Position numbers and translations under genes: made by a program. From positions 813,073 to 877,072 of the forward strand of contig JAOSJP010000001.1 in assembly GCA_027494015.1 (NCBI GenBank): a stretch of 64,000 bases of DNA, in the 5' to 3' direction. The DNA comes from Anaerolineae bacterium (GTDB lineage: Bacteria; Chloroflexota; Anaerolineae; Aggregatilineales; Aggregatilineaceae). How positions within the stretch are numbered: the first letter of the stretch is position 1; every line of letters begins with the position of its first letter. The notes under the pieces were generated by a model. The model did no database searches, was not told the DNA's origin, and saw nothing but the letters and a program-made list of their open reading frames with translations. Positions 462 to 13,699 of this stretch are shown one piece after another.

Positions 462-1505
462 ATGAGCAGGACCATGCTGGCCGCCTTTGTCAGAGCGCCC
501 TTCGAATTCGCGCTGCGCGAGATCGCGGTGCCCGAAGTCCGCGAAGGCTGGGCCTTGATCAAAGTCGAAGCGTGCGGAATCTGCGGCACCGATCTGCACA
601 TCGCCAGCTCGATCACCCATCGCCTGACGCCCAAACCGCCCACCGAGTGGCAGGGGTTCGGGCACGAGGTCGCCGGCATCGTGGCCCAGGTGGGGCCGGG
701 CGTGCGCAACGTCAAAGAGGGCGACCGGGTCGTGCTGGAGAGCGGTTCCTACTGCGGCACGTGCGACCTGTGTCGCAACGGGCGCTCTGACCTGTGCAAC
801 AAGGGGCCGAACTTCTGGAACAACGAAAGCATGGGCTTCGCCGAGTATATCCTGGCCCCCAAAGAGTGTCTCGTCCCCTTCGATGGCCTGAGCTTCGAAG
901 TCGCCAGCCTCAGCGAGCCGTTGGGCGTGGCCCTGGACATGACCTATACGGCGGACATCGCCCTGGGCGACGACGTGCTGGTGCTGGGCCTCGGCCCGAT
1001 TGGTCTGCTGTCCATTCCCCTGGCCCGACACAAAGGCGCGGCGCACATCTACGCCGCCAACCGGTCGGGTGGCAGGCGCGCGGACCTGGCGCGGCTCTAC
1101 GGGGCGGACAGCGTGATCCTGACCAGCGAGACGCCGGTCGAGGAGATTCGCTTCCGGCGCGGCGGCGTAGACCGCGCGCTGGTCTCGGCGTCGGCGTCAG
1201 CGGTGCTGAGCGCCCTGCCGGTGATGAACTACGGCGGCATCATCGCCTTCATCGGCATCGAGTACGGCCCTGGCGCTGCGCTGACCTTCGACGCCAACGA
1301 GTTCCACTTCCGCAAGCTGCAACTGCGCGCCTCTCATGCCGCGCCCGCCCTGTACTTCCCCACCTGCTTGCAGCTTCTGAAGGATGGGCACGTCAACGGC
1401 GAGGCGATCATCTCCCACGTCATGCCGCTGGAGCGCATCGTCGAGGCCATGACGCTGCTGCGCGATGCGCGCGGCGACGTGCTGAAGATCGTGATCAAGC
1501 CGTGA
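462..1505 (+). CDS. Zinc-dependent medium-chain alcohol/polyol dehydrogenase
   Basis: A 347-residue medium-chain dehydrogenase that should oxidise an alcohol or polyol with NAD(P). Catalytic zinc ligands are visible as C38 in CGICGTDLH and the GHE motif at 67-69. The structural zinc lobe has four cysteines at C98, C101, C104 and C112. The Rossmann nucleotide-binding glycine motif GLGPIG lies at 176-181. The start chosen is the ATG preceded by CGGAGGAG about nine bases upstream; a longer frame opens at 363 but adds residues not typical of the family. Sorbitol, threonine and glucose dehydrogenases share this architecture, so the substrate cannot be called. It is transcribed alone, and repeats follow it. 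Confidence 0.88.
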   Translation: MSRTMLAAFVRAPFEFALREIAVPEVREGWALIKVEACGICGTDLHIASSITHRLTPKPPTEWQGFGHEVAGIVAQVGPGVRNVKEGDRVVLESGSYCGTCDLCRNGRSDLCNKGPNFWNNESMGFAEYILAPKECLVPFDGLSFEVASLSEPLGVALDMTYTADIALGDDVLVLGLGPIGLLSIPLARHKGAAHIYAANRSGGRRADLARLYGADSVILTSETPVEEIRFRRGGVDRALVSASASAVLSALPVMNYGGIIAFIGIEYGPGAALTFDANEFHFRKLQLRASHAAPALYFPTCLQLLKDGHVNGEAIISHVMPLERIVEAMTLLRDARGDVLKIVIKP

Positions 1506-2377: not shown

Positions 2378-5300
2378 ATGATGCCGGTTGAGGCCTGTTT
2401 CATGGCATATGGCACGCTGCATCGCGATACATTAGTTCCTTACGTCTCAGGCGTCATCGAGCGACCGCGCCTCCTGGAGCTGCTCGCCCGCGCGCGCCAG
2501 CATAAGCTGACCCTGGTCTGCGCGCCGCCCGGCTACGGCAAGACCACCCTCGTCGCCCAATTCGCCGCCCAGATTCCCGACGCCATCGCCTGGCATACGC
2601 TCGAAGAGCGCGAGCGCGACCTGCCCAACCTCTTCCAGCGCGCGCTGCAAGTCCTGGACTCTGTCGCGCCGGGAATGGCGCGGCTGGCCCCCGCGCCCGG
2701 CATGACCCCCGCCGAGATGGCGGCTCTGGTCGCGGATTACCTGCGCGAGAACACGTCGGGGCACACCCTCTACATCCTCGACGACATCCAGATCATCTCC
2801 GAGTCGCCGGCGGTTGAGTACTGGATGCAGGTGCTGCTCGAACGCCTGCCGTCCAACTGCCATCTGATCCTGATCGGGCGCGTGCTGCCCAACCTGCCGC
2901 TGACCGAGCTTATCGCGCGCGGCGAGGTGTTGGCGCTGGGCCAGGAACAGCTTCGTTTCACCGCCACCGAGATCTTCGAGATGGCCCACTCCACGCCGGG
3001 CAGCAGCTTGCGCACTATGGCCGAGGCCGAAGACCTGGCGGCACGCCTGGAAGGGTGGCCGGCGGGCACCATCCTGGCCCTGCACCCCCTGCCCGCCGAT
3101 CTGGAACAGGCCATCCTCAAAGGCGGCAAAGGCCCCGAAGCCCTCTTCGACTCGCTGGCCGCGTCCATGCTGGAAGCCCAGCCGCCCGGCCTGCGCGACT
3201 TTCTGCTCGCCTCCTCCACGCTGCTGCGCATGACGCCGGAGTTGTGCTCGTCCGTGCTTCAGCTCCCCGACAGCGCCGAGTGGCTGGCCGAGATCCAGAG
3301 CCGCAACCTGTTCATTTCCAAGATGGCCGGCGGGCTGATCTATCACCGCCTCTTCCGCAACTTCCTGCAGCGCCAGCTCAAACAGGACGACCCCAACCTG
3401 TTCCTGACCCTGCACGCGCGGGCGGCGCGCTGGTTCGAAGAGCGCAACCAGGTGGACTGGGGCTTCGAGCATTACATGGCCGCCGGGCTGATCGAGCGCG
3501 CGGCCAAGATTTCGGATCGCGTCGCCAACATGTACTTCGCCCAGGGCAAGGTGGAGACGCTGCTCAAGTGGCGCGCCCAACTGGGGCAGATCGGCATCTT
3601 CGCGCCGGGGCTGCTGTACAACTGCGCGCGCGTGCACACCGATCGCTACAACTACGAGGAAGCCGAGCAGTCGCTCAACGAGGCCGAGCGCGGCTTCGCC
3701 GAGGCGGGCGACGAGACCGGCCATACCTACATCCAGCTTCAGCGCGCCTTCATCAAGCTCCAGCGCGGCGACTTCCAGACCGCTGTCTCCGAAGCGCGCC
3801 AGTTGGCCTCTTACGTCACCGAGCAGCCCGATCTGCAAGGGCGCGCGCTCAAGATTCTGGGCGTGGCTCACCTGCGCCTGGGCGAGCTAACGGCGGCGGT
3901 GGAATATTTGCAGCAGGCGCTCGATTTGCATCGTCAGGACGGCGACGCGCACGCCCTGGCCAACGCCCTGCAAGACCTCAGCGTGGCTTACTCGCGCCTG
4001 GGCCGGCTCGGCGATGCCAGCGCGTGCCTGCAAGAGGTCGTCGCGCTGCGCCGCTCGCTGGGCAGCACCGGCGCGCTGGCTGCGGCCCTCAACAACCTGG
4101 GGCACTACTACTATCGCGGCGGCGATTACGAGCGGGCCTGGGCAACCTACCAGGACGGGCTGAGCATCCTGGCTCGCGTGCCCAACCGCCGCGTGGAGAG
4201 CGCCTTGCTGTGCAGCATGGGCGAGCTACGCCGCGACCAGGGCAGCTTTGAGGAGTCGCTCAAGCTGTACAACCGCGCGCTGGAACTGATCGGCCTCAGC
4301 GACCCCTGGCTGCGCAGCGCCGTCCTGGTGAGTTGCGCCACGCTCCAGCGCTGGTCTGGCAAGCCGCACGAAGCGGAATCGCTGGCCGAGAAGGCGCTGC
4401 AACTGGCCGAGACGCACGCCTTGGCGCTGGAACGGGTGACGGCGGAGGCGGCGCTGTGGGCGGCGCGCATCGCGCTGGGGCAGGCCGCCACCGCCCGCGA
4501 ACAGCTTGAAGCGCTGATCGCCAAGCTGCGCGAGCAGGGCGCGCGCTCTGAGCTGGTTTGGGCCTACGCGCTGCTCGCCTCGGCAGCGCTGAATTGCTCC
4601 GACCTGACTGCCGCCGAGGAAGTCTTGCAGCTTGGCCTCAAGGAAGCGAAGGCCATCGGCACGCTGCAAATCCTGGTCACGGAGATCGCCTACACACCGG
4701 CGTTGGAATCGCTGGTGGTGCAGCGCGCGGGCAAGTTCGGCGAGCTGGTGGGCGCGCTCAAGCAGCACCGCTCGGCGCAGATGCGCGTGCGCCACGCCCT
4801 GCGCCTGCGCCGCATCGAGCCGCACGCCACGTACAGCCTGCGCGTGCTCACGCTGGGCCACGAGCGGCTGGAGCGCGACGGGGAGGCCATCGCCCTGTCC
4901 GAATGGCGCTCCAACACAGCCCGCGAGATGTTCTACTACCTGCTGTTTCACGGCGGGCAGAGCCGCGAGCGCATCAGCCTGGACTTCTGGCCGGACAGCT
5001 CGCCGCAGCGCGTGCGCTCCAACTTCCACACCACACTGTACCGCGCGCGCCAGGCGCTCGGCGAGAATGTGATCATCTTCCACGATGGCCAGTACATCCT
5101 CAACCCCGAGGTTGATCTGTGGTGCGATGCGCACGAGCTGGAAACCCTGGTCCAGCAGGCGCGGCTGCTTTCCATCCGCGACGCGCGCACCGAAGACCTG
5201 TGGCGGCGGGCGGTGGCGCTCTATCAGGGCGACTTCCTGCCCTCGTGGGACGCCGAATGGGTCGTCTACCGCCGCGAGGGACTCTTCGAGATGTACCTGG

Positions 5301-5557
5301 AGGCGCTGGTCGGGCTGGGGCAGTGCGCCAATGCGCGGGGCGATCATCGGGGCGCGCTGCGGGCTTACCGGCGCGCGCTGGATGCCGACCCGTTCCGCGA
5401 GGACGTGCACCGCGCGGTTCTTCTCTGCTACGCCGAAATGGGCGACAAGCGCCAGGTGCGCAACCACTACCAGAAGCTGTGCGATCTGTTCGACGAAGAG
5501 CTGGGCGCTGAGCCGGACGATGAGACCATCGCCCTTGCTGAGTCCCTCCTGAAGTAG
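2378..5557 (+). CDS. Large NTPase-TPR-BTAD transcriptional activator (MalT/LAL-like N-terminus, OmpR-type C-terminus)
   Basis: A 1059-residue cytoplasmic regulator. Residues 49-57 (APPGYGKTT) are a Walker A motif and YILDDIQ near 130 is a Walker B, together forming a STAND-type NTPase related to MalT. About residues 380-760 are helical tetratricopeptide-type repeats, with many LG..Y...G..A spacings. From about residue 820 the protein has a winged-helix OmpR-like DNA-binding domain (SEWRSNTAREMFYYLLFH) followed by a bacterial transcriptional activator domain to the C-terminus. Such proteins switch on promoters after a small ligand or partner binds the TPR/NTPase sensor. The start is ATG 2378; an in-frame ATG at residue 9 is an alternative. 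It is the nearest upstream gene to the peptide array at 6119, with 561 bases between; a regulatory link is inferred from position only. Confidence 0.9.
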   Translation: MMPVEACFMAYGTLHRDTLVPYVSGVIERPRLLELLARARQHKLTLVCAPPGYGKTTLVAQFAAQIPDAIAWHTLEERERDLPNLFQRALQVLDSVAPGMARLAPAPGMTPAEMAALVADYLRENTSGHTLYILDDIQIISESPAVEYWMQVLLERLPSNCHLILIGRVLPNLPLTELIARGEVLALGQEQLRFTATEIFEMAHSTPGSSLRTMAEAEDLAARLEGWPAGTILALHPLPADLEQAILKGGKGPEALFDSLAASMLEAQPPGLRDFLLASSTLLRMTPELCSSVLQLPDSAEWLAEIQSRNLFISKMAGGLIYHRLFRNFLQRQLKQDDPNLFLTLHARAARWFEERNQVDWGFEHYMAAGLIERAAKISDRVANMYFAQGKVETLLKWRAQLGQIGIFAPGLLYNCARVHTDRYNYEEAEQSLNEAERGFAEAGDETGHTYIQLQRAFIKLQRGDFQTAVSEARQLASYVTEQPDLQGRALKILGVAHLRLGELTAAVEYLQQALDLHRQDGDAHALANALQDLSVAYSRLGRLGDASACLQEVVALRRSLGSTGALAAALNNLGHYYYRGGDYERAWATYQDGLSILARVPNRRVESALLCSMGELRRDQGSFEESLKLYNRALELIGLSDPWLRSAVLVSCATLQRWSGKPHEAESLAEKALQLAETHALALERVTAEAALWAARIALGQAATAREQLEALIAKLREQGARSELVWAYALLASAALNCSDLTAAEEVLQLGLKEAKAIGTLQILVTEIAYTPALESLVVQRAGKFGELVGALKQHRSAQMRVRHALRLRRIEPHATYSLRVLTLGHERLERDGEAIALSEWRSNTAREMFYYLLFHGGQSRERISLDFWPDSSPQRVRSNFHTTLYRARQALGENVIIFHDGQYILNPEVDLWCDAHELETLVQQARLLSIRDARTEDLWRRAVALYQGDFLPSWDAEWVVYRREGLFEMYLEALVGLGQCANARGDHRGALRAYRRALDADPFREDVHRAVLLCYAEMGDKRQVRNHYQKLCDLFDEELGAEPDDETIALAESLLK

Positions 5558-6118
5558 CCTCTTTCCCCCAGAAATCACGCGGGTTTATCTCATCCCCTGG
5601 CCTCGTTGCGCGCGGCCTTTCCCTGTTCCGTTCACGGAGCGGGACGGGGCGCGTTAGAGGCCGTCCGAAAACCTGTGCGCCTGCGTTTGCCCCCAATCCC
5701 CGGCCCTTCCCCCACGAGGGAGGCTGTTGGCGAGCCAGGCACGCGCCGATTTCGTAGGGGCGGGTTTGCAAACCCGCCCCTACAAAAACGCTTTGATCGG
5801 CGCGGGGTTCGTAGGGGTGTGCTGCACTACGCCCCAAGGGGAGCCGTTCGCCAACAGTATCACGAGGGGGGAAGGGAGAAGAACGCGCCCGCTAAGCCCC
5901 TCCCTCCTTGTGGGGGAGGGGTTTGGGGTGGGGGGAGGCAACTTCTCAAACGGTCTCTTCGAACAGTCCCATTCACGCGAGCAAAGAGCCTCCGTCCGAA
6001 TTAGGTGCGACTTATTTTACCCTGGTAAGCAGTTTGTTGCACACCCCCTGCTAAAGTTGCGATCAACAAGCGATTATTCGTGCTAAGCGCACTAAATTGT
6101 CATCTAAGGAGATACAAG
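5558..6118. repeat. Intergenic region with a 134-bp inverted-repeat element and an AT-rich leader
   Basis: The gap between the large regulator and the peptide genes has no gene. Bases 5724-5857 are bounded by CTGTTGGCGA and its complement TTCGCCAACAG. Inside lies a perfect 30-bp palindrome (5754-5783) with arms GTAGGGGCGGGTTTG. The same 134-bp element occurs in the opposite orientation at 49376-49509. Bases 6000-6118 are conspicuously AT-rich compared with the surroundings and probably contain the peptide-gene promoter. Variants of TGSTAA recur there at 6023, 6049 and 6081, but I cannot fix a -10/-35 pair. Confidence 0.75.
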
Positions 6119-6274
6119 ATGAGAAGCGCATTGTTTACAGCGACCAATTGGCTTGCCTGCGATCCGCGCCGCATCGTGACGGTGGCGCTCATCGTGCTGA
6201 CCGTGCTGGCGGTGACGCTGGCCCTGGTGCCTGGCACCCCGGCCCTGGCGCTCGAGATCACCTCCGGCAGTTGA
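6119..6274 (+). CDS. Small secreted-peptide precursor, copy 1
   Basis: A 51-residue product. The ATG follows an excellent AAGGAGATACAAG ribosome site, which fixes the start over an upstream in-frame codon at 6080. The N-terminus (MRSALFTATNWLACDPRR) is basic. A long hydrophobic stretch from about 19 to 37 follows, then VPGTPALA, and the chain ends LEITSGS. Small residues at 42 and 44 (ALA) form a signal-peptidase I-like site, so cleavage would release the heptapeptide LEITSGS. It is the most divergent of three tandem copies at the N-terminus and has its own leader. It could instead be an uncleaved single-pass micro-protein. No family is recognised. Confidence 0.75.
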   Translation: MRSALFTATNWLACDPRRIVTVALIVLTVLAVTLALVPGTPALALEITSGS

Positions 6275-6588
6275 TCTGGCCCGTATCCGCATCATCCACA
6301 AGCATCCATTCAGTGACCAGGCGCGCATCGCGCGATGAGGGGAGAGAAGGACGATGAAGCACACATTCTTTAAGGCAGCGAACTGGCTGGCGGGCGATCC
6401 GCGCCGCATTGTGACGGTGGCGCTCGTGGTGCTGACGGTGCTGGTGGTGACGCTGGCCCTGGTGCCTGGCACCCCGGCCCTGGCGCTCGAGATCACCTCC
6501 GGCAGTTGATCCGGCCCGTATCCGCATCATCCACAAGCATCCATTCAGTGACCAGGCGCGCATCGCGCGATGAGGGGAGAGAAGGACG
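6275..6588. repeat. Tandem 235-bp duplication units carrying the peptide genes
   Basis: Bases 6275-6509 and 6510-6744 are near-identical units made of a 79-bp spacer plus a 156-bp gene. The spacer opens with CCCGTATCCGCATCATCC and carries the palindrome CATCGCGCGATG in each copy. Copy 1 of the gene (6119-6274) is homologous from about its 13th codon onward but lacks the upstream spacer. Sequence identity is so high that the second duplication must be recent or homogenised by gene conversion. The range given covers the two spacers and the copy between them. Confidence 0.85.
6354..6509 (+). CDS. Small secreted-peptide precursor, copy 2
   Basis: A 51-residue peptide beginning MKHTFFKAANWLAGDPRR, starting exactly 235 bases after copy 1. 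The hydrophobic core, the VPGTPALA segment and the terminal LEITSGS are the same as in copy 1. A GAGAGAAGG ribosome site precedes the ATG. The 79-base spacer after copy 1 contains the 12-bp palindrome CATCGCGCGATG at 6326-6337. The spacer is repeated almost exactly before copy 3, so the duplicated unit is gene plus spacer. Differences from copy 3 inside the coding region are few: Val for Ala in the core, and LEITSGS for GEITSGS. Confidence 0.75.
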   Translation: MKHTFFKAANWLAGDPRRIVTVALVVLTVLVVTLALVPGTPALALEITSGS

Positions 6589-6744
6589 ATGAAGCACACA
6601 TTCTTTAAGGCAGCGAACTGGCTGGCGGGCGATCCGCGCCGCATCGTGACGGTGGCGCTCGTGGTGCTGACGGTGCTGGCGGTGACGCTGGCCCTGGTGC
6701 CTGGCACCCCGGCCCTGGCTGGCGAGATCACCTCCGGCAGCTAA
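6589..6744 (+). CDS. Small secreted-peptide precursor, copy 3
   Basis: The third 51-residue copy, again 235 bases downstream. It ends PALAGEITSGS then TAA. The change of the residue after ALA from Leu to Gly makes the predicted signal-peptidase site cleaner. The mature heptapeptide would be GEITSGS, differing from the other two only at its first residue. The 12-bp palindrome recurs at 6561-6572 upstream. Downstream, a different leader with GAAGGAGAG introduces the 106-residue gene at 6800, so this copy closes the array and may be co-transcribed with that gene. Confidence 0.75.
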   Translation: MKHTFFKAANWLAGDPRRIVTVALVVLTVLAVTLALVPGTPALAGEITSGS

Positions 6745-6799
6745 TTGTGGTGGCAAGGTGGGAAACTACGGCTCTGTCTGGATTGAAGGAGAGAACGCA

Positions 6800-7120
6800 A
6801 TGGCTATGATGGACCAGACCCCAATTATGGATGTCTCCCCGTGGCCGACCGGACACGGCTTTGAAGGCGCGAACGTCTGGTGGGAAGGCGTGAATCGCCG
6901 GGACGAAATGCAGCGCCTGGATAATCTGATGGGCGTGGCCCTGCTGGACGAGGACGTGCGCCGTCGGTTGGTCAAGGAGCGCGATACCTCCCTGCTGGCT
7001 GCCTTCGGTCTGTCGAAGGAAACGCAGAAGTGGCTGCGCGAGGTCAAGGCGGCGACGCTGGCCGAGCTGGCCCAGGCGATTGTCGTGCGGACGCGCAACG
7101 AGGCTCATGCCGGGCTGTAG
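6800..7120 (+). CDS. Small helical protein of 106 residues, possible RiPP-precursor-like fold
   Basis: A 106-residue soluble protein starting at ATG 6800, placed after GAAGGAGAG. The N-terminal 40 residues are rich in Gly, Trp and Pro (DVSPWPTGHGFEGANVWWEG). The C-terminal part is helical and charged: LMGVALLDEDVRRRLVKERD, then LLAAFGLSKETQKWL, then AATLAELAQAI. From memory this C-terminal pattern resembles the short domain found in the Franean1_4349-type putative RiPP precursors of Actinobacteria and Chloroflexota. I cannot check that here, and no modification enzyme sits nearby. It follows the peptide array by 55 bases in the same direction and may share its transcript. Confidence 0.6.
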   Translation: MAMMDQTPIMDVSPWPTGHGFEGANVWWEGVNRRDEMQRLDNLMGVALLDEDVRRRLVKERDTSLLAAFGLSKETQKWLREVKAATLAELAQAIVVRTRNEAHAGL

Positions 7121-7260
7121 CGGCAGCCCCGCACCCTGAGCACTCCGCACTGCTCTGCGTTATGTATCGCGGCGTCGAGGGCCTGGTCGCTGACCAGGCC
7201 CGCCGGGTCTCTGAAGTTGGCCGCCTTGCGGGTGGCGGCAACATGCGAGTGGGGTGACAG

Positions 7261-7653
7261 ATGTTCAACAAGGCCGTCATGGCGGTAGGCGATGACGCTG
7301 ACGAGATGGAGCGCCTCGCCGTCATCCTGAGACAACAGGGGTTGGCTGTGCTGAAAGCGCACGATGCCGACCGCGCGTTGCACCTCATCAAGTCGCTCAA
7401 GCCCGACCTGTTTCTGCTCGACGTGTGGGCGAATGGCCTGAACAGCTACGACCTATGCCGCTGGCTGCGCGCCAACCGAAACACCGCCAACACGCCCGTG
7501 ATCATCCTGTCGGCATTCAATACGCTCCACGCCCGGCGCGATGCGCTGGCATCCGGCGCTGACCTGTTCCTCCCCAAAGCGCATCTGTCCACCGAGCTGC
7601 TGGGCGCGGTGCAGGGGCTGCTTGAGCGCAACGGTCACCCTCACACGATCTAA
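7261..7653 (+). CDS. Stand-alone response-regulator receiver domain
   Basis: A 130-residue single-domain CheY-like protein. Acidic residues D11 and D12 lie in the first loop. The phospho-acceptor is D54 in FLLDV, the conserved Ser/Thr is in VIILSAF, and the switch lysine is in LPKA. There is no output domain, so it should act by protein-protein contact or as a phosphorelay intermediate. No histidine kinase is encoded in the window. A 140-base spacer separates it from the 106-residue gene. Its position just after the peptide array could make it part of the same sensory locus, but that is only positional. Confidence 0.85.
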   Translation: MFNKAVMAVGDDADEMERLAVILRQQGLAVLKAHDADRALHLIKSLKPDLFLLDVWANGLNSYDLCRWLRANRNTANTPVIILSAFNTLHARRDALASGADLFLPKAHLSTELLGAVQGLLERNGHPHTI

Positions 7654-7762
7654 ACGCCCCTGCTCTTGCCGGGCTGCCCGGCCTGCGACTACCGCTCCAC
7701 GCCGATCCTGTGGTACTGTTGGGTCTGCGTGCTGAACGTATTGTCCCCAGGAGGTTGGCTCC

Positions 7763-9148
7763 GTGAAACTCACGGTGATCGGCGGCGGCGGCGTGCGCGC
7801 CCCGCTCTTTGTTGCTTCGGCGCTGCGTCGCGCGGCGGCGCTGGGCCTCGACGAGATCTGCCTGATGGATGTGGACGGCCCCAAGCTGGCCCTGACTGGC
7901 GCGCTGGCCCAGGGCGTGGCGCGCAAAGCGGGCAGCCCCGTGCGCGTGACGACCGCGACCGACGCGCGCCAGGCGCTCGCTGGGGCGTCTTTCGTGGTGA
8001 CGACGATTCGCGTCGGCGGCGACGAGGGCCGCGTGCTGGACGAGCGCATCGCCCTGCGGCACGGCGTGCTCGGCCAGGAGACGACCGGGCCGGGCGGGTT
8101 TGCGATGGCCCTGCGCAGCATCCCGGCCATCCTCGGCTACGCCCGCCTGCGCGACGAGCTGTGCCCGGATGCCTGGATGTTCAACTTCACCAATCCGGCG
8201 GGGCTGGTGACCCAGGCGCTGCACGACGCCGGATTCGCCCGCGCGGTTGGCATCTGCGACTCGGCCAACGGCGCGCAGGAAGCCATCGCCCCGCGCCTGG
8301 GCTGTGCGGCCAGCGACCTGCGCCCGGAAGTCTTCGGGCTGAATCACCTGTCGTGGACGCGGCGGGTGCTGTACCAGGGCGAAGATGTGCTGCCGCGCCT
8401 GCTGGCCGACCCGGACGTGCTGCGCGAGACGCGGCTCAATATCTTCGAGCCGGCGCTGGTGCAGCACCTGGGAATGTGGCTCAACGAGTACCTTTACTAT
8501 TTCTACTATGCGGAGCGGGCCGTCGCTGCCATCAGCGCCGAGGAGCGCACGCGCGGTGAAGAAGTGCTGATGCTCAACCGCGACCTGCTGGCGCAGCTCC
8601 GCCAGCTTGATCCGGCGCGCGATCTCGACGCGGCGCTGGCCATCTATTACCGCTACGAGCGGCGGCGCTCGTCCACCTACATGCACTACGCCCAGCAGGA
8701 CGCGCCCACGCCTGAGGAGGCCGACGCCCAGTTCAGCGCCACCTTCCTGGAGGTTGACCCGCACGAGGGCGAGGGCTACGCGGGCGTGGCCCTGGGCATC
8801 ATGGCCGCGCTGATCAGCGGGGAGCCGCACTACACGGCGCTCAACGTGCCCAACAACGGTGCAATCGCGGGCATGGCGCCGGACGACGTGGTGGAGGTGA
8901 GCTGCGTGGTGGACGGCGACGGCGTGCATCCGCTGCCCATCGGGGCAATACCCGACGGCCCGGCGCTGCTCATGCAGGTGATCAAGCGTTACGAGCGGCT
9001 GACGGTGCGCGCCGTAGCCGGGCGGTCGCGCGCCCTGGCCATTGACGCGCTAATGGCCCACCCGCTGGTGCTGTCCTATTCGCGGGCGCGCGCCCTGGTG
9101 GACGAGTACCTGGCTGCCCACGCACCGTATGTTGGGGAGTGGGCGTAG
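7763..9148 (+). CDS. Glycoside hydrolase family 4 (NAD- and metal-dependent glycosidase)
   Basis: A 461-residue GH4 enzyme, which cleaves alpha- or beta-glucosides, galactosides or their 6-phosphates by an NAD-assisted oxidation-elimination mechanism. The Rossmann motif is at the very N-terminus (KLTVIGGGGVRAP). NFTNPAGLVTQAL is the family signature. The metal-binding cysteine is C165 in GICDSAN, and N194-H195 lie in GLNHLSW. The ATG follows an AGGAGG ribosome site. No PTS genes or transporter adjoin it, so a non-phosphorylated or cytoplasmically released substrate is possible; the exact sugar cannot be assigned. Confidence 0.9.
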   Translation: MKLTVIGGGGVRAPLFVASALRRAAALGLDEICLMDVDGPKLALTGALAQGVARKAGSPVRVTTATDARQALAGASFVVTTIRVGGDEGRVLDERIALRHGVLGQETTGPGGFAMALRSIPAILGYARLRDELCPDAWMFNFTNPAGLVTQALHDAGFARAVGICDSANGAQEAIAPRLGCAASDLRPEVFGLNHLSWTRRVLYQGEDVLPRLLADPDVLRETRLNIFEPALVQHLGMWLNEYLYYFYYAERAVAAISAEERTRGEEVLMLNRDLLAQLRQLDPARDLDAALAIYYRYERRRSSTYMHYAQQDAPTPEEADAQFSATFLEVDPHEGEGYAGVALGIMAALISGEPHYTALNVPNNGAIAGMAPDDVVEVSCVVDGDGVHPLPIGAIPDGPALLMQVIKRYERLTVRAVAGRSRALAIDALMAHPLVLSYSRARALVDEYLAAHAPYVGEWA

Positions 9149-10788: not shown

Positions 10789-11028
10789 ATGGGCCAGGGA
10801 GCGAGTGTGTTCTTCAATGTTGTGTCGGCCATCTTCCTCGTGCTGACGCTGCTGGTGCTGATCGTCGTGCTCAGCGTGGCCGGCGGCACGATGGAAGCGC
10901 CGTTCTTAGCGCCGGAGGACACGCAGCCCCCGCCGACCATCGCTCAGCCGCCCACCCTGACGCCCTCACCGCTCCCTGGCGCGGCGCTCACGGCGACAGC
11001 CGCTGCCACAGCAGAGGGCGGACAGTAG
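10789..11028 (+). CDS. Small membrane-anchored protein with Thr/Pro tail (trio member 1)
   Basis: A 79-residue protein starting at ATG 10789 after GAGAGGGGAAAGG, 22 bases downstream of the parvulin stop. One transmembrane helix spans about residues 9-31 (FFNVVSAIFLVLTLLVLIVV). A short Pro/Thr/Ala tail follows (PPTIAQPPTLTPSPLPG). Its helix is related to those of the next two genes, but it lacks the C-terminal domain they carry. It is either a natural short paralogue or a truncated one. Function unknown. Confidence 0.7.
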   Translation: MGQGASVFFNVVSAIFLVLTLLVLIVVLSVAGGTMEAPFLAPEDTQPPPTIAQPPTLTPSPLPGAALTATAAATAEGGQ

Positions 11029-11157
11029 GTTATCAGTGGTCACTCGATCATTGCAGATTGACGACTGACCACTGACAACCGATCACTGACAACCGATCAC
11101 TGACAACTGACGACTGATCACTGCTCGCCCACTTCGCCGGGCGCGGGGAGGGATGCC
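11029..11157. repeat. Intergenic run of ACTGATCACTGACAA-type repeats
   Basis: The spacer is composed of overlapping variants of ACCGATCACTGACAAC and ACGACTGATCACTG. The same words appear between other genes in the window: 30412-30535, 35934-36003, 50655-50760 and 60000-60130. They have no coding frame. Confidence 0.7.
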
Positions 11158-11976
11158 ATGAACCGGGTGATGAATGGGTGCTTCAACCTGGTGACGGTGC
11201 TGTTCGTGCTGCTGACCATCGGGGCGGCAGTCGTCGCGCTGGGCATCGCCGGCGATGCGCTGGAGTCGCCGATCTTCAAGCCGAAGGATACGGCGGTCAT
11301 CCCCACGATTGCCGCGTTCGCCCCGCCCACGCCCCAGCCCACCTGGACTCCGTCCAACACGCCGCCGCCCACGTCCACGCCGACCGATAGGCCGACGCGC
11401 ACCTTCACGCCAACGGCCACACCGACCGGCACGCCCACCGCGACGGCATCGCTCACGCCCTCGATCTCGCCCACTTTCACCACGTCGCCAACCTTCACCA
11501 TGTCGCCGACCAACACGCTGCCGCCGCCAACCGCCACCTTCACCAGAACGCCGACCCTCACGCCAACCGTCACGCCGCTGCCCACGTCCACGCCGAGCGC
11601 GACGCCGACTGTAGAGCTTTCCTTCATCGTGCAGCCCGGCTCGGTGATCCTGCGCGAGAATTTCGGCAACACGGCGGGCTGCAACTGGCAAGGGCTGGCC
11701 GGGCTGGTCACCACCGATCGCGGCGAGCCGGTGATCGGCGTGGAAGTGCGCGTGCGCGGCGCAGGCGGCAATTTCGCGGCGCTGAGCGGGACAGCGACTT
11801 TCTATGGGCCGTCGGGTTGGGAGATCAAGGTCGCCGACCAGCCCAACACAGGCAGTTACGTCGTTGAGTTGTGGGTGACGGGCCAGCAGGCGTCGCCGAG
11901 CCAGGAGATCGTCTTCCCTGGCGTGTGCCAGCAGAACCTGGCAATGGTCAACTTCATTCGGACGAGCCAGCCCTAG
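11158..11976 (+). CDS. Membrane-anchored protein with Thr/Pro-rich linker and C-terminal Ig-like domain (trio member 2)
   Basis: A 272-residue protein. One transmembrane helix is near residues 8-33 (CFNLVTVLFVLLTIGAAVVA). Then comes a linker of about 100 residues of TPTxTPT-type repeats and a compact domain from about 155 to the end. That domain contains two Cys, a GLAGLVTTDRGEPVIGVEVR strand pattern and a closing TSQP. The layout puts a small carboxypeptidase-regulatory or Ig-like domain on a long extended stalk outside the membrane. Its C-terminal domain is recognisably similar to that of the 12106 product, so the two are paralogues. Role unknown; adhesion or cell-envelope sensing is possible. 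Confidence 0.78.
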   Translation: MNRVMNGCFNLVTVLFVLLTIGAAVVALGIAGDALESPIFKPKDTAVIPTIAAFAPPTPQPTWTPSNTPPPTSTPTDRPTRTFTPTATPTGTPTATASLTPSISPTFTTSPTFTMSPTNTLPPPTATFTRTPTLTPTVTPLPTSTPSATPTVELSFIVQPGSVILRENFGNTAGCNWQGLAGLVTTDRGEPVIGVEVRVRGAGGNFAALSGTATFYGPSGWEIKVADQPNTGSYVVELWVTGQQASPSQEIVFPGVCQQNLAMVNFIRTSQP

Positions 11977-12105
11977 CGGCGCGCCGGTGACAGGCTGGTG
12001 ATTGGTTGTTGGTTGTTGGTTTCGGGTTATTGGTGGGCGCACAGCCCTGCCGCTTTTACCAACCACCAATAACCAATAACCAATAACCCAAAACAGGCAG
12101 ACTCA
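11977..12105. repeat. Intergenic TTGGTTGTTGGT/ACCAACAACC inverted repeats
   Basis: The spacer contains GATTGGTTGTTGGTTGTTGG, and further on its near-complement as AACCACCAATAACCAATAACC, so the transcript could fold on itself. The same words recur at 34119-34180, 35934-35965 and 61588-61612. Confidence 0.65.
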
Positions 12106-12915
12106 ATGGGGCACAGGCAGTCTTCGGGCGCAGGTTTCCTGGACGTGATCACCGTCCTTTTCGTCGTGCTGACGGTGGGCGTGATCGCGCTGGTTGTGCT
12201 GATCCTCGACGACCCCAACACGCCGCTCAACCCGTTCCCGCCGCCGACCGTCGCGCCGGTGCTGGCGCTGCCGACGCTCACCCCCTCGCCCACGGTCACC
12301 GCCACGCCGACAGCGACGGCCACGCCCACCGCCACCGCCACACCAACGGCGACTGACACGCCCACCGCCTCGCCCACTGCCACCGATACGCCTACGCCCA
12401 CCGCCACGCCGACTCAGGTGTTGGTCGGCGCGCCCGCGCCCGCCCTGCCAGCGGATTCCGGGCAGACGGCCACGCTGCCGCCGCTCGATGATGGCAGCGG
12501 CGGAATTGTGCCGGGCGCGGCTGGCCCCCAGCCTGCCCCGCTCACACCGACGCGCGCGCCATTCCCCTTCACGGCGGGGCCGGCGCGCTACGAGGCGAAC
12601 GACAACGACCAGGGCTGCCAGTGGCTGGGCGTCGCCGGGACGGTTACGGGTCTGTCCGGCGAGCCGCTGCCCGGCCTGGCCATCGAAATCACCGGCGAGA
12701 ATTTTCGCAGCGTGCGCTTTTCCGGCTCGGCAGACTGGTGGGGCAGGTCCGGGTTCGAGTTCCAGGTGGGGGCCGCGCCGCGCCCGGCGACCTTCACCCT
12801 GCTCGTGCTCGGCCCGACAGGCGCGCCCATCTCGGAGCCTGTCACCATCGAGACCGGCGTCACCTGCCAGACCAATGTGGCGCTGGTGGAGTTCCGGCAG
12901 AACCACGCCTATTAG
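12106..12915 (+). CDS. Membrane-anchored protein with Thr/Pro-rich linker and C-terminal Ig-like domain (trio member 3)
   Basis: A 269-residue paralogue of the 11158 product. The N-terminal helix is at about 9-32 (GFLDVITVLFVVLTVGVIAL). A TATPTAT-type stalk spans about 55-145. The C-terminal domain begins near residue 160 with a CQWLGVAGTVTGLSGEPLPG pattern that matches CNWQGLAGLVTTDRGEPVIG in the sister protein. This shared block suggests a carbohydrate-binding or CarboxypepD_reg-like fold. It ends 34 bases before the KaiC-like ATPase gene and is probably co-transcribed with it. Confidence 0.78.
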   Translation: MGHRQSSGAGFLDVITVLFVVLTVGVIALVVLILDDPNTPLNPFPPPTVAPVLALPTLTPSPTVTATPTATATPTATATPTATDTPTASPTATDTPTPTATPTQVLVGAPAPALPADSGQTATLPPLDDGSGGIVPGAAGPQPAPLTPTRAPFPFTAGPARYEANDNDQGCQWLGVAGTVTGLSGEPLPGLAIEITGENFRSVRFSGSADWWGRSGFEFQVGAAPRPATFTLLVLGPTGAPISEPVTIETGVTCQTNVALVEFRQNHAY

Positions 12916-12949: not shown

Positions 12950-13699
12950 ATGGCCGATCTGATGCGCGTGTCAAGCGGCGTGCCGGGCCTGGATGCCATG
13001 CTGGGCGGCGGCTACATCCCCCAGTCGGCCATTCTGGTGCGCGGCGCGCCAGGGACGGGCAAGACCACCTTCGGCCTGCAATTCGTGCTGGACGGCGCGC
13101 GTCAGGGCCAGGCGGGATTGTTCGTCACCTTCGAGGAGTTCCCCCAGTCGCTCTACCGCGACGCGGCCAGCCTGGGCTGGAACCTGGCCGAGGCCGAGGC
13201 CAGCGGGATGCTGCACCTGCTCTTCACGTCGCCCGAAGTGCTGCTCACCAGCCTCGCCGCGCCCGACAGCAACCTGTTGCGCCGCATCCAGCAGGGCGGC
13301 ATCCAGCGCGTCGTGGTGGACAGCCTGACCCACTTCACCCGCGCCGTGCGCGACGATCACGCGCGGCGACGCGCCTATCATCAGGCGATCAGCGCGTTCC
13401 GGCGGGAGGGCGTCACCGCCGTGTATCTGGACGAAGAAGGGCGCGCCGACTACACCCGCCAGGAACGCGGGGGCCTGTCGTTCATTGCCGACACGCTGAT
13501 CATGCTGCGCTACCTGGAAATTGACAGCGCCATCCAGCGCGCGCTGCTGGTGCTCAAGATGCGCGGCTCGGCGCATGATACGACCATTCACCGCTATACG
13601 ATCGGGTCGGGAGGCAGCGTCGTGGGCGAGCCGCTGACCGGCCTGAGCGGACTGCTGAGCGGGCTGGCCGAGCGCCACCTGATCAGCACCGTGCAGTGA
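12950..13699 (+). CDS. KaiC/RadA-like RecA-fold ATPase
   Basis: A 249-residue single-domain RecA-fold ATPase beginning at ATG 12950 after GGGAGGAG. Walker A is RGAPGTGKTT (31-40) and Walker B is RVVVDSL near 119-125. The opening SGVPGLDAMLGGGYIPQSAI is diagnostic of the KaiC/GvpD/circadian-type family, which has one domain here instead of the two of KaiC. Such proteins act as signalling or gene-regulatory ATPases. It closes a likely five-gene operon that starts with the parvulin lipoprotein at 9795; how a cytoplasmic ATPase works with the anchored proteins is unknown. Confidence 0.87.
   Translation: MADLMRVSSGVPGLDAMLGGGYIPQSAILVRGAPGTGKTTFGLQFVLDGARQGQAGLFVTFEEFPQSLYRDAASLGWNLAEAEASGMLHLLFTSPEVLLTSLAAPDSNLLRRIQQGGIQRVVVDSLTHFTRAVRDDHARRRAYHQAISAFRREGVTAVYLDEEGRADYTRQERGGLSFIADTLIMLRYLEIDSAIQRALLVLKMRGSAHDTTIHRYTIGSGGSVVGEPLTGLSGLLSGLAERHLISTVQ

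Follow-up and report, generated by a model that had tools for sequence, protein, structure and literature searches.

A conserved Chloroflexota gene cassette that may encode peptide autoinduction through a TPR regulator with a SARP-type DNA-binding end

Results

Gene organization of the cassette

The stretch of DNA analysed here, referred to as the window, comprises 64,000 nucleotides of Anaerolineae bacterium contig JAOSJP010000001.1 (assembly GCA_027494015.1, positions 813,073 to 877,072 of the forward strand). It carries a gene for a large regulator, three short tandem peptide genes, a gene for a small helical protein and a gene for a receiver domain, which were given the working names REG, PEP1 to PEP3, OS and RR; L and G numbers denote loci and genomes, respectively. 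The genes and the putative operator are listed in Table 1. A first-pass annotation, which read the region as a peptide-signalling locus beside a TPR regulator, had placed all these genes correctly, and the translations of PEP1 to PEP3 end in the tails it had reported, LEITSGS twice and GEITSGS once.

Table 1. Position of the cassette features in the window
Feature	Position	Strand	Description
REG	2378..5557	+	1059 aa; MalT-like NTPase ~26-370, TPR superhelix, winged-helix DNA-binding domain + BTAD ~817-1058
Putative operator and -10	6025..6057	+	GTAAGCAGTTTGTTGCAC...TAAAGT; -10 at 6052-6057; TAnnnT spacing fixed
PEP1	6119..6274	+	51 aa, tail LEITSGS, tail codons 6251-6271
PEP2	6354..6509	+	51 aa, tail LEITSGS, tail codons 6486-6506
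PEP3	6589..6744	+	51 aa, tail GEITSGS, tail codons 6721-6741
OS	6800..7120	+	106-aa helical protein, distantly Os1348 / Franean1_4349-like (NHLP clan)
RR	7261..7653	+	receiver domain without output domain; phospho-acceptor Asp54

The PEP units are 235-bp tandem repeats, the second and third being 89% and 68% identical to the first. The likeness among the three copies is therefore not independent evidence.

Conservation of the cassette among relatives

The PEP profile matched in 13 of 200 related genomes, 5 of which were already known from the search with OS. A PEP copy adjoins the OS gene in 12 of the 13, and in 10 of these 12 REG lies upstream of a PEP copy on the same strand; in the other two (G003 and G004) the contigs start at the PEP gene. 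In G007, REG and OS are located on two contigs, each ending in a PEP copy. For the weakest PEP match, G052, none of the cassette partners was found within the 17 kb read.

The OS search covered 396 genomes of the class, with matches in 24, and 300 relatives, with matches in 53, two sets that overlap; most of the matching loci were read. Related loci belong to members of the Anaerolineae, Anaerolineales, Thermoflexus and Aggregatilineales. Loci with an OS match of at least 60 bits were classified as strong and those with a lower score as weak. REG was counted when located up to 2.2 kb upstream, at loci with at least 1.6 kb of upstream sequence, and RR at loci with 1 kb of downstream sequence; these counts, and those of the promoter element given below, include the window and close relatives (e.g. 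L139/L140 and L123/L152).

REG was found upstream on the same strand in 25 of 27 strong loci. Of the two exceptions, L144 has REG in divergent orientation, and G065 has it elsewhere in the genome: the peptide gene, OS and RR are at L127, while REG and a second OS without a peptide gene are at L128. RR follows in 33 of 38 strong loci, and among weak loci REG is present in 13 of 18. The recurring order starts with REG and the promoter element, followed by one to eight peptide genes and OS, to which one lineage adds RR; the genes outside the cassette vary between lineages.

A PEP-like open reading frame (ORF) occurs in 35 of 42 REG-to-OS gaps, compared with 31 of 1680 length-matched random intervals; the criterion was written after examples had been seen. 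The cassette signal exceeds chance, the likeness among the window's own three copies set aside. The peptide genes of the window are thus part of a larger conserved cassette. The expected co-occurrence with the regulator was found, and peptides and regulator do stay together as first proposed; that unit was drawn too small, since OS and, in one lineage, RR also belong to it.

Peptide precursors and their C-terminal tails

Many of the precursors begin with a WLxxDPRR-like segment, followed by a hydrophobic stretch and a small-x-Ala site, and end in a tail of about 7 to 19 residues. The tails differ by lineage: GEITSGS, GDITSGS, GQASGGSG, GGASGGSH, GNAPGGSH, GKATTGPH, GQATGGVH, GWAAGGSD, GWAIGGGY, GPISGPPDIFR and Cys-rich forms such as GPGSSSGVCGSC. 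The term heptapeptide, used in the first-pass annotation, therefore fits the clade with EITSGS-like tails and not the other lineages. At L133, a single precursor carries DGQAPGGSY three times in line.

The peptides analysed are a curated list of 44, since the automatic choice of small ORFs erred at some loci (e.g. L046). A small-x-Ala site was assigned in 43 of the 44 by a simple rule which sometimes chose the wrong site, a later one within the tail; the tails for the covariation tests described below were set by eye.

Comparison of 11 partly overlapping sequence pairs from the EITSGS clade gave 26 synonymous differences in the final six codons and 3 nonsynonymous ones (all E to D). The proportions of nonsynonymous and synonymous changes (pN/pS) are 0.20/0.36 for the leader and 0.08/0.55 for the tail. 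Conservation of the tail had been named beforehand as decisive, and in this clade the tail is under stronger constraint than the leader; in addition, two genomes keep tail-like peptides without any leader. On these grounds the tail looks like the product of the precursor.

The sublineage of L082, L084, L085, L086 and L087 has peptides of the form ...NPPxxGGxPx together with a perfect GTGAGAR direct-repeat promoter, which is also present in L088.

The WLxxDPRR start (6149-6172 in the window, and in relatives) is similar to the N-terminus of bacterial light-harvesting alpha chains. This start and the hydrophobic helix account for weak matches to antenna-chain models, at most 16.8 bits against a cut-off of 35 for NF040861 and 14.4 against 23 for PF00556. 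The identification of PEP as an antenna chain was rejected because of these scores, and the likeness is probably convergent.

Leaderless relatives in arrays

Upstream of OS, L141 contains five micro-ORFs with a unit of 80 bp. Four of them encode MGPATGGPGGSI and the first reads MNTYAGPATGGPGGSI. Each MGPATGGPGGSI copy has its own GGAGG-type site, and the copies differ only at synonymous and stop positions. Without its Met, this 12-mer starts with GPATGG, and its first Gly apparently corresponds to the Gly found after the AxA site in other precursors. The contig begins inside an apparent promoter element, for which the -10 spacing is retained (as judged by eye).

L201 has a complete REG followed by the element (1 mismatch) and by eight tandem ORFs. 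Read from the ATG codons behind clear ribosome sites, these encode MQNETIVIRANAGNAAGGSR, MQNETIIIRADAGNAAGGSR or MQHINETIVVRANAGNAAGGSR, although five of the eight also have longer in-frame starts. The final nine residues (...AGNAAGGSR) are identical in all eight, with codons varying at four positions. Upstream of an intact OS (161 bits), L126, another contig of the same genome (G108), holds two or more further copies, of which the first is truncated by the contig end; the two contigs were kept separate. An OS-like remnant and an apparent degenerate array copy lie at the end of the L201 array (863-1033, reverse strand).

The patterns used to find the copies in L141 and L201 leave few bases free. 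The copies follow one another gap-free at regular spacing (80 bp in L141; 88 or 95 bp in L201), so that no diverged copy was missed inside the arrays. Micro-ORFs of 12 residues in such arrays are missed by ordinary gene calling. Since the leaderless arrays keep the tail, the tail appears to be the product that matters, the leader being dispensable in some relatives.

A promoter element upstream of the peptide genes

Upstream of the first peptide gene lies an element with the consensus TGGTAAGCAsTTTGTTGCACaCCCC, followed at a fixed distance by TAnnnT. The window contains one such element at up to 2 mismatches, and the next best site has 4. In 64 segments upstream of OS, the 14-base core was found exactly in 24 and with at most 1 mismatch in 32, compared with 0.005 and 0.12 in single-base shuffles.

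The element is present in 27 of the 28 strong loci that have both REG and OS; the sole exception, L128, has no peptide gene. In the genome with the divided cassette (G065), the element stays with the peptide gene at L127, away from REG, and in L144 it still precedes the peptide genes though REG is divergent. Searched over whole genomes, the strict pattern was found a single time in each of 20 among the 33 OS-bearing genomes (one site being listed twice), and its reversed control once. Eighteen of the 20 sites are at the cassette and the other two elsewhere (G006:C38 and G153:C953). The link between peptides and regulator had been described as positional only; this description is superseded, as a SARP-like promoter element precedes the peptide genes.

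In weak loci with REG and OS, 8 of 14 have heptamer direct repeats with an 11-bp step, against 0.195 in shuffles, located 8 to 9 bp before a -10-like hexamer. The heptamers differ by sublineage: GTGAGAG twice, GTGAGAA twice, GTCAGTG/GTCAGTA and GTAAGTA/GTAAGTG. For SARP operators, the literature describes heptamer direct repeats, often overlapping the -35 region, with spacers of 4 to 15 nt and classically an 11-bp step (PMC10972967, PMC5930380).

The AfsR-like C-terminal domain of REG (see below) matches the SARP-like geometry of the element, and REG is adjacent to it; REG is therefore the probable activator of the peptide operon.

In L125 (2763-2829, in G147), OS is followed by two more copies of the element, 53 bp apart, after which no peptide gene was recognised.

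A candidate target in trans

A longer pattern at up to 2 mismatches gave 57 sites in 29 genomes, of which 26 are at the cassette promoter and 31 elsewhere; the reversed control gave 14. Given this ratio, the off-cassette sites would be partly real and partly due to chance. Thirteen of the 31 were fetched.

In G001, G002, G005, G008 and G019, off-cassette sites precede a gene coding for a zinc ribbon (recognised by eye from Cys pairs) and an FHA domain (E = 3.5e-15). In genomes that had not been picked by site, the region upstream of the best FHA homologue has sites at 2 to 3 mismatches in G003, G004 and G007, and no site in G011, G013 and G017. Overall, one to three copies of the element, at up to 3 mismatches, precede the zinc-ribbon/FHA gene in 8 of 11 genomes. 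No site was found upstream of more distant FHA homologues in G120 and G130. The L169 gene has a site at 3 mismatches upstream, and L170 has none within 4. Five FHA loci that were scanned gave no match to REG or BTAD.

The sites of the element are consistent with a small regulon and not with a mere local repeat.

An element-like site (2 mismatches) also occurs in L163 (4968-5759, in G057), before a gene that by eye reads like a response regulator.

Domains and fold of REG

Pfam matches of REG include BTAD (PF03704, 1.2e-17), TPR_12 (4.2e-26) and TPR_MalT, and its 58 sequence matches in the PDB include MalT (8bob), NprR (4gpk, E = 7e-4) and AfsR (8hvr). The AlphaFold2 model shows a TPR superhelix (pLDDT 87). 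In Foldseek, the NTPase-TPR half matched MalT 8bob (TMt 0.73) and the C-terminal 240 residues matched AfsR in its transcription complex (TMt 0.77). The TPR region resembles many peptide-binding TPR proteins, such as NprR by sequence and LGN complexes by Foldseek. The name MalT was not adopted for the function of REG, which scores 189 against a cut-off of 537.

Covariation between tail and TPR region was analysed for 20 core cassettes with OS in the same locus, after removal of REGs less than 15% apart. Tail distance tracks TPR distance once the remainder of REG is controlled for (partial r = 0.37, p = 0.0005), in a partial Mantel test, a procedure which overstates significance; the reverse test gave -0.09. 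No clear link was seen for the leader (0.16, p = 0.09) or for OS (-0.05). The partial correlation ranged from 0.31 to 0.41 when single cassettes were left out, and was 0.30 without the EITSGS-like clade (p = 0.009, n = 17). Only 2 of 200 control segments, which are overlapping short segments of OS, RR, the leader and other parts of REG, reached 0.37. Taken together with its weakening when three rows were added (see Discussion), the covariation lends moderate support to the sensing of the tail by REG.

SBP_bac_5 proteins, which may serve in peptide import, were found in 8 of 8 genomes, with 11 to 24 matches each.

OS and RR

Residues 39-96 of OS match two models below their curated cut-offs, NF038399 (E = 0.0048, 16.9 bits against 40) and PF14407 (E = 0.0093, 16.7 bits against 48). 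The AlphaFold2 model of OS has five helices (pLDDT 64), and Foldseek returned nothing at E ≤0.001 among its 8 matches up to E = 10. The OS profile gave only weak matches in the PDB: the best was a designed protein (E = 0.0095), and 6lk7 followed at E = 0.38. The latter is an 85-aa chain labelled 'nitrile hydratase, alpha chain', and presumably is the Os1348 structure. OS differs from Os1348 and Franean1_4349 in its own N-terminal MDVSPWP...WW segment and in its membership of this cassette.

Os1348 of Pseudomonas sp. Os17 is described as an 85-aa dimeric protein that sits in a bacteriocin-like cluster with predicted modification and efflux genes, and its loss shrank the halo against B. subtilis (PMC7726476). 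Given the link of this distant relative to antibiotic activity, the circuit may have OS as its output.

RR matches PF00072 (3.4e-17). In an alignment of 36 cassette receivers, Asp54 is invariant and Lys106 is present in 35.

Neighbouring genes in the window

Directly 3' of the cassette lies a family 4 glycosidase (GH4) gene (7763-9148); among the loci scanned for it, GH4 follows the cassette only in the window, L001, L002 and L003. Three consecutive genes at 10789-12915, without a Pfam match, have N-terminal membrane anchors that look similar by eye, and Pro/Thr-rich stretches. They are followed by a KaiC-type ATPase gene at 12950-13699 (PF06745, E = 1.7e-46). Two G+C-rich intergenic regions, at 1700-2140 and 5590-5990, contain similar palindrome-like sequence, CCCCCTCTCC...GGAGAGGGG, and on visual inspection resemble dispersed intergenic repeats.

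Discussion

A proposed model of peptide autoinduction

The cassette is best read, with a probability of roughly 0.65, as a unit for peptide autoinduction that would work like the RRNPPA systems through an unrelated receptor. Co-occurrence and tail conservation support the initial proposal of a peptide-signalling locus; cleavage, export, import, binding and the direction of control are predicted from sequence.

According to this model, the leader would route the precursor through the Sec pathway, and signal peptidase I would cut after the small-x-Ala site to release a short Gly/Ser-rich peptide (GEITSGS or LEITSGS in the window). An oligopeptide ABC importer would take the released peptide back up, and the peptide would bind to the TPR superhelix of REG. 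Ligand-bound, ATP-loaded REG would then bind to the repeats upstream of the -10 as a SARP-type activator, switching on the peptide-OS-RR operon (autoinduction) and, in trans, the zinc-ribbon/FHA gene. Leaderless peptides could act inside the producing cell or leave it by another exporter, as the leaderless communication peptides (LCPs) of Firmicutes do.

A broader proposal, to which we give slightly better than even odds, is that the Chloroflexota possess a widespread family of peptide quorum-sensing systems with STAND-TPR-SARP receptors and short Gly/Ser-rich signals diversified by lineage. In some species the signal genes would be leaderless, of 12 to 22 residues, with as many as eight arrayed downstream of the receptor's operator. 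Such a class would be independent of RRNPPA.

Several observations weigh against peptide autoinduction. With respect to the promoter, the element is present in only 1 of 14 weak loci with REG and OS, and this one (L152) is a contig-cut member of the strong lineage. In the strong lineage, to which the window belongs, only 1 of 28 loci passes the repeat test, compared with 0.33 in shuffles, and the one that passes owes this to sites inside the L045 peptide array. The half-sites GTAAGCA and GTTGCAC of the strong lineage are not clear copies of each other, so that the term direct repeat is used there by analogy and because of the spacing. The binding of REG to the element is likewise predicted from fold, adjacency and geometry.

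With respect to sensing, MalT-type TPRs can also bind sugars, and the overstated significance of the covariation has been mentioned. When L042, L201 and L128 were added (n = 23; for L128 the peptide was taken from L127, in the same genome), the partial correlation was 0.225 (p = 0.012) and the reverse one 0.128 (p = 0.14). The tail of L201 is not clearly predicted by its nearest neighbours in TPR sequence.

With respect to the peptides and their partners, the sublineage of L082 and L084-L087 has no clean small-x-Ala site near the tail, and the leaderless forms have no export signal. The leader is conserved too: WLxxDPRR is kept in many lineages, beyond what a plain signal peptide needs. RR is found in only 3 of 23 weak loci. 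The L201 array is followed only by a short OS-like start, MLRTNETPVKDLLPTSL, and a stop, with no OS match. Finally, Os1348 is reported as an antibiotic-related protein and not as a part of a signalling system (PMC7726476).

Alternative explanations

The conserved leader could also mean that PEP is a single-pass membrane microprotein, with its N-terminus inside and the short tail outside, whose cytosolic WLxxDPRR tethers REG, OS or RR as a stress sensor. The long hydrophobic segment would suit such a role, and the weak antenna-chain matches show its transmembrane-like character. An anchor would not, however, be expected to have a leader less constrained than its tail, as found in the EITSGS clade, or to be lost from two genomes that keep the tail without leader or transmembrane segment, and tails repeated in line would make no sense for it. 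We consider this explanation unlikely.

Alternatively, the tail or OS could be the modified or exported precursor of an antimicrobial, such as a ribosomally synthesized and post-translationally modified peptide, a bacteriocin or another antibiotic, with REG as the pathway regulator. The distant match of OS to the Os1348 and Franean1_4349 models, the smaller halo and bacteriocin-like cluster reported for Os1348 (PMC7726476), and the Cys-rich nature of some tails would fit, as would the frequent control of biosynthetic clusters by SARPs (PMC10972967). However, OS scores far under both curated cut-offs, many tails are free of Cys and only 7 to 12 residues long, and no modification enzyme or exporter was noticed in the recurring unit, in scans that targeted only REG, peptide, OS, RR and GH4. 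Moreover, complementation of the Os1348 mutant did not restore activity, and the mechanism was called unclear (PMC7726476). An antimicrobial precursor is therefore a rather doubtful reading. The Os1348 link and the OS remnant of L201 shifted the odds slightly, lowering those of autoinduction from 0.66 to 0.65 and raising those of an antimicrobial a little. A signalling circuit with OS as an antibiotic output would merge the two readings.

It is much less probable that the small ORFs act in cis, their translation governing the expression of OS and RR by attenuation while the peptide itself is irrelevant. The peptide ORFs do lie between promoter and OS, often in tandem and many with a Shine-Dalgarno-like sequence, but the amino acids of the tail are kept while the codons vary, including the four identical 12-mers and the eight array copies, and no Rfam match at gathering score was found at 5500-7800 of the window. 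The small size, hydrophobicity and tandem arrangement of the PEPs recall type I toxins, but a toxin is hardly credible, given the hydrophilic leaderless members of the family and the conservation of regulator and operator.

Significance and comparison with known systems

Peptide autoinduction, if confirmed for this cassette, would be the first known peptide-based cell signalling in the Chloroflexota, a mostly uncultured phylum that is abundant in sludge, soil and sediment, and would involve an unfamiliar kind of receptor. To our knowledge, the inputs of STAND/SARP regulators are largely unknown, and the cassette would provide a ligand class for them. It offers a candidate ligand, receptor, operator and second target together, so that the circuit could be reconstructed in E. 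coli with no need to culture the host. We know of no peptide signalling in the Chloroflexota and of no peptide sensing by STAND-TPR-SARP receptors, and among the matches listed from the open-access literature searched no such system was described.

The NTPase-TPR half of REG is like that of MalT, which has a LuxR-type helix-turn-helix (HTH) domain and binds maltotriose; unlike MalT, REG has a SARP domain with BTAD. With the large SARPs, such as AfsR and PimR, REG shares the SARP DNA-binding domain, BTAD, NTPase and TPRs, but in reversed order, with the DNA-binding end at the C-terminus (817-1058) instead of the N-terminus. In the portions of PMC10972967 and PMC5930380 available to us, no peptide ligand is described for large SARPs.

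The leaderless signal ORFs find a parallel in the LCP/SIP system with RopB, where very short leaderless ORFs, 8 to 9 residues in the examples described, are presented as single genes (PMC10518010). The present family differs in its arrays of 5 and 8 hydrophilic micro-ORFs and in having leaders elsewhere.

The closest parallel in working would be the RRNPPA systems of the Bacillota (Rap, Rgg, NprR, PlcR, PrgX, AimR), in which a cytosolic TPR regulator is also encoded beside a short propeptide gene. In these, the propeptide is of the Sec type and its last 5 to 10 residues are the signal, as is proposed here for the tail; signals repeated in tandem or in line have been described there as well (PMC11343458). 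It had been anticipated that regulator class and phylum would differ from those of the Firmicutes RRNPP regulators, and indeed REG shares the TPRs and lacks the RRNPPA architecture: it has an N-terminal STAND/MalT NTPase and a C-terminal SARP domain with BTAD, whereas RRNPPA regulators have an N-terminal HTH or, in Rap, a 3-helix bundle. The cassette is further distinguished by its occurrence in the Chloroflexota, by the additional OS and RR genes and by hydrophilic Gly/Ser tails.

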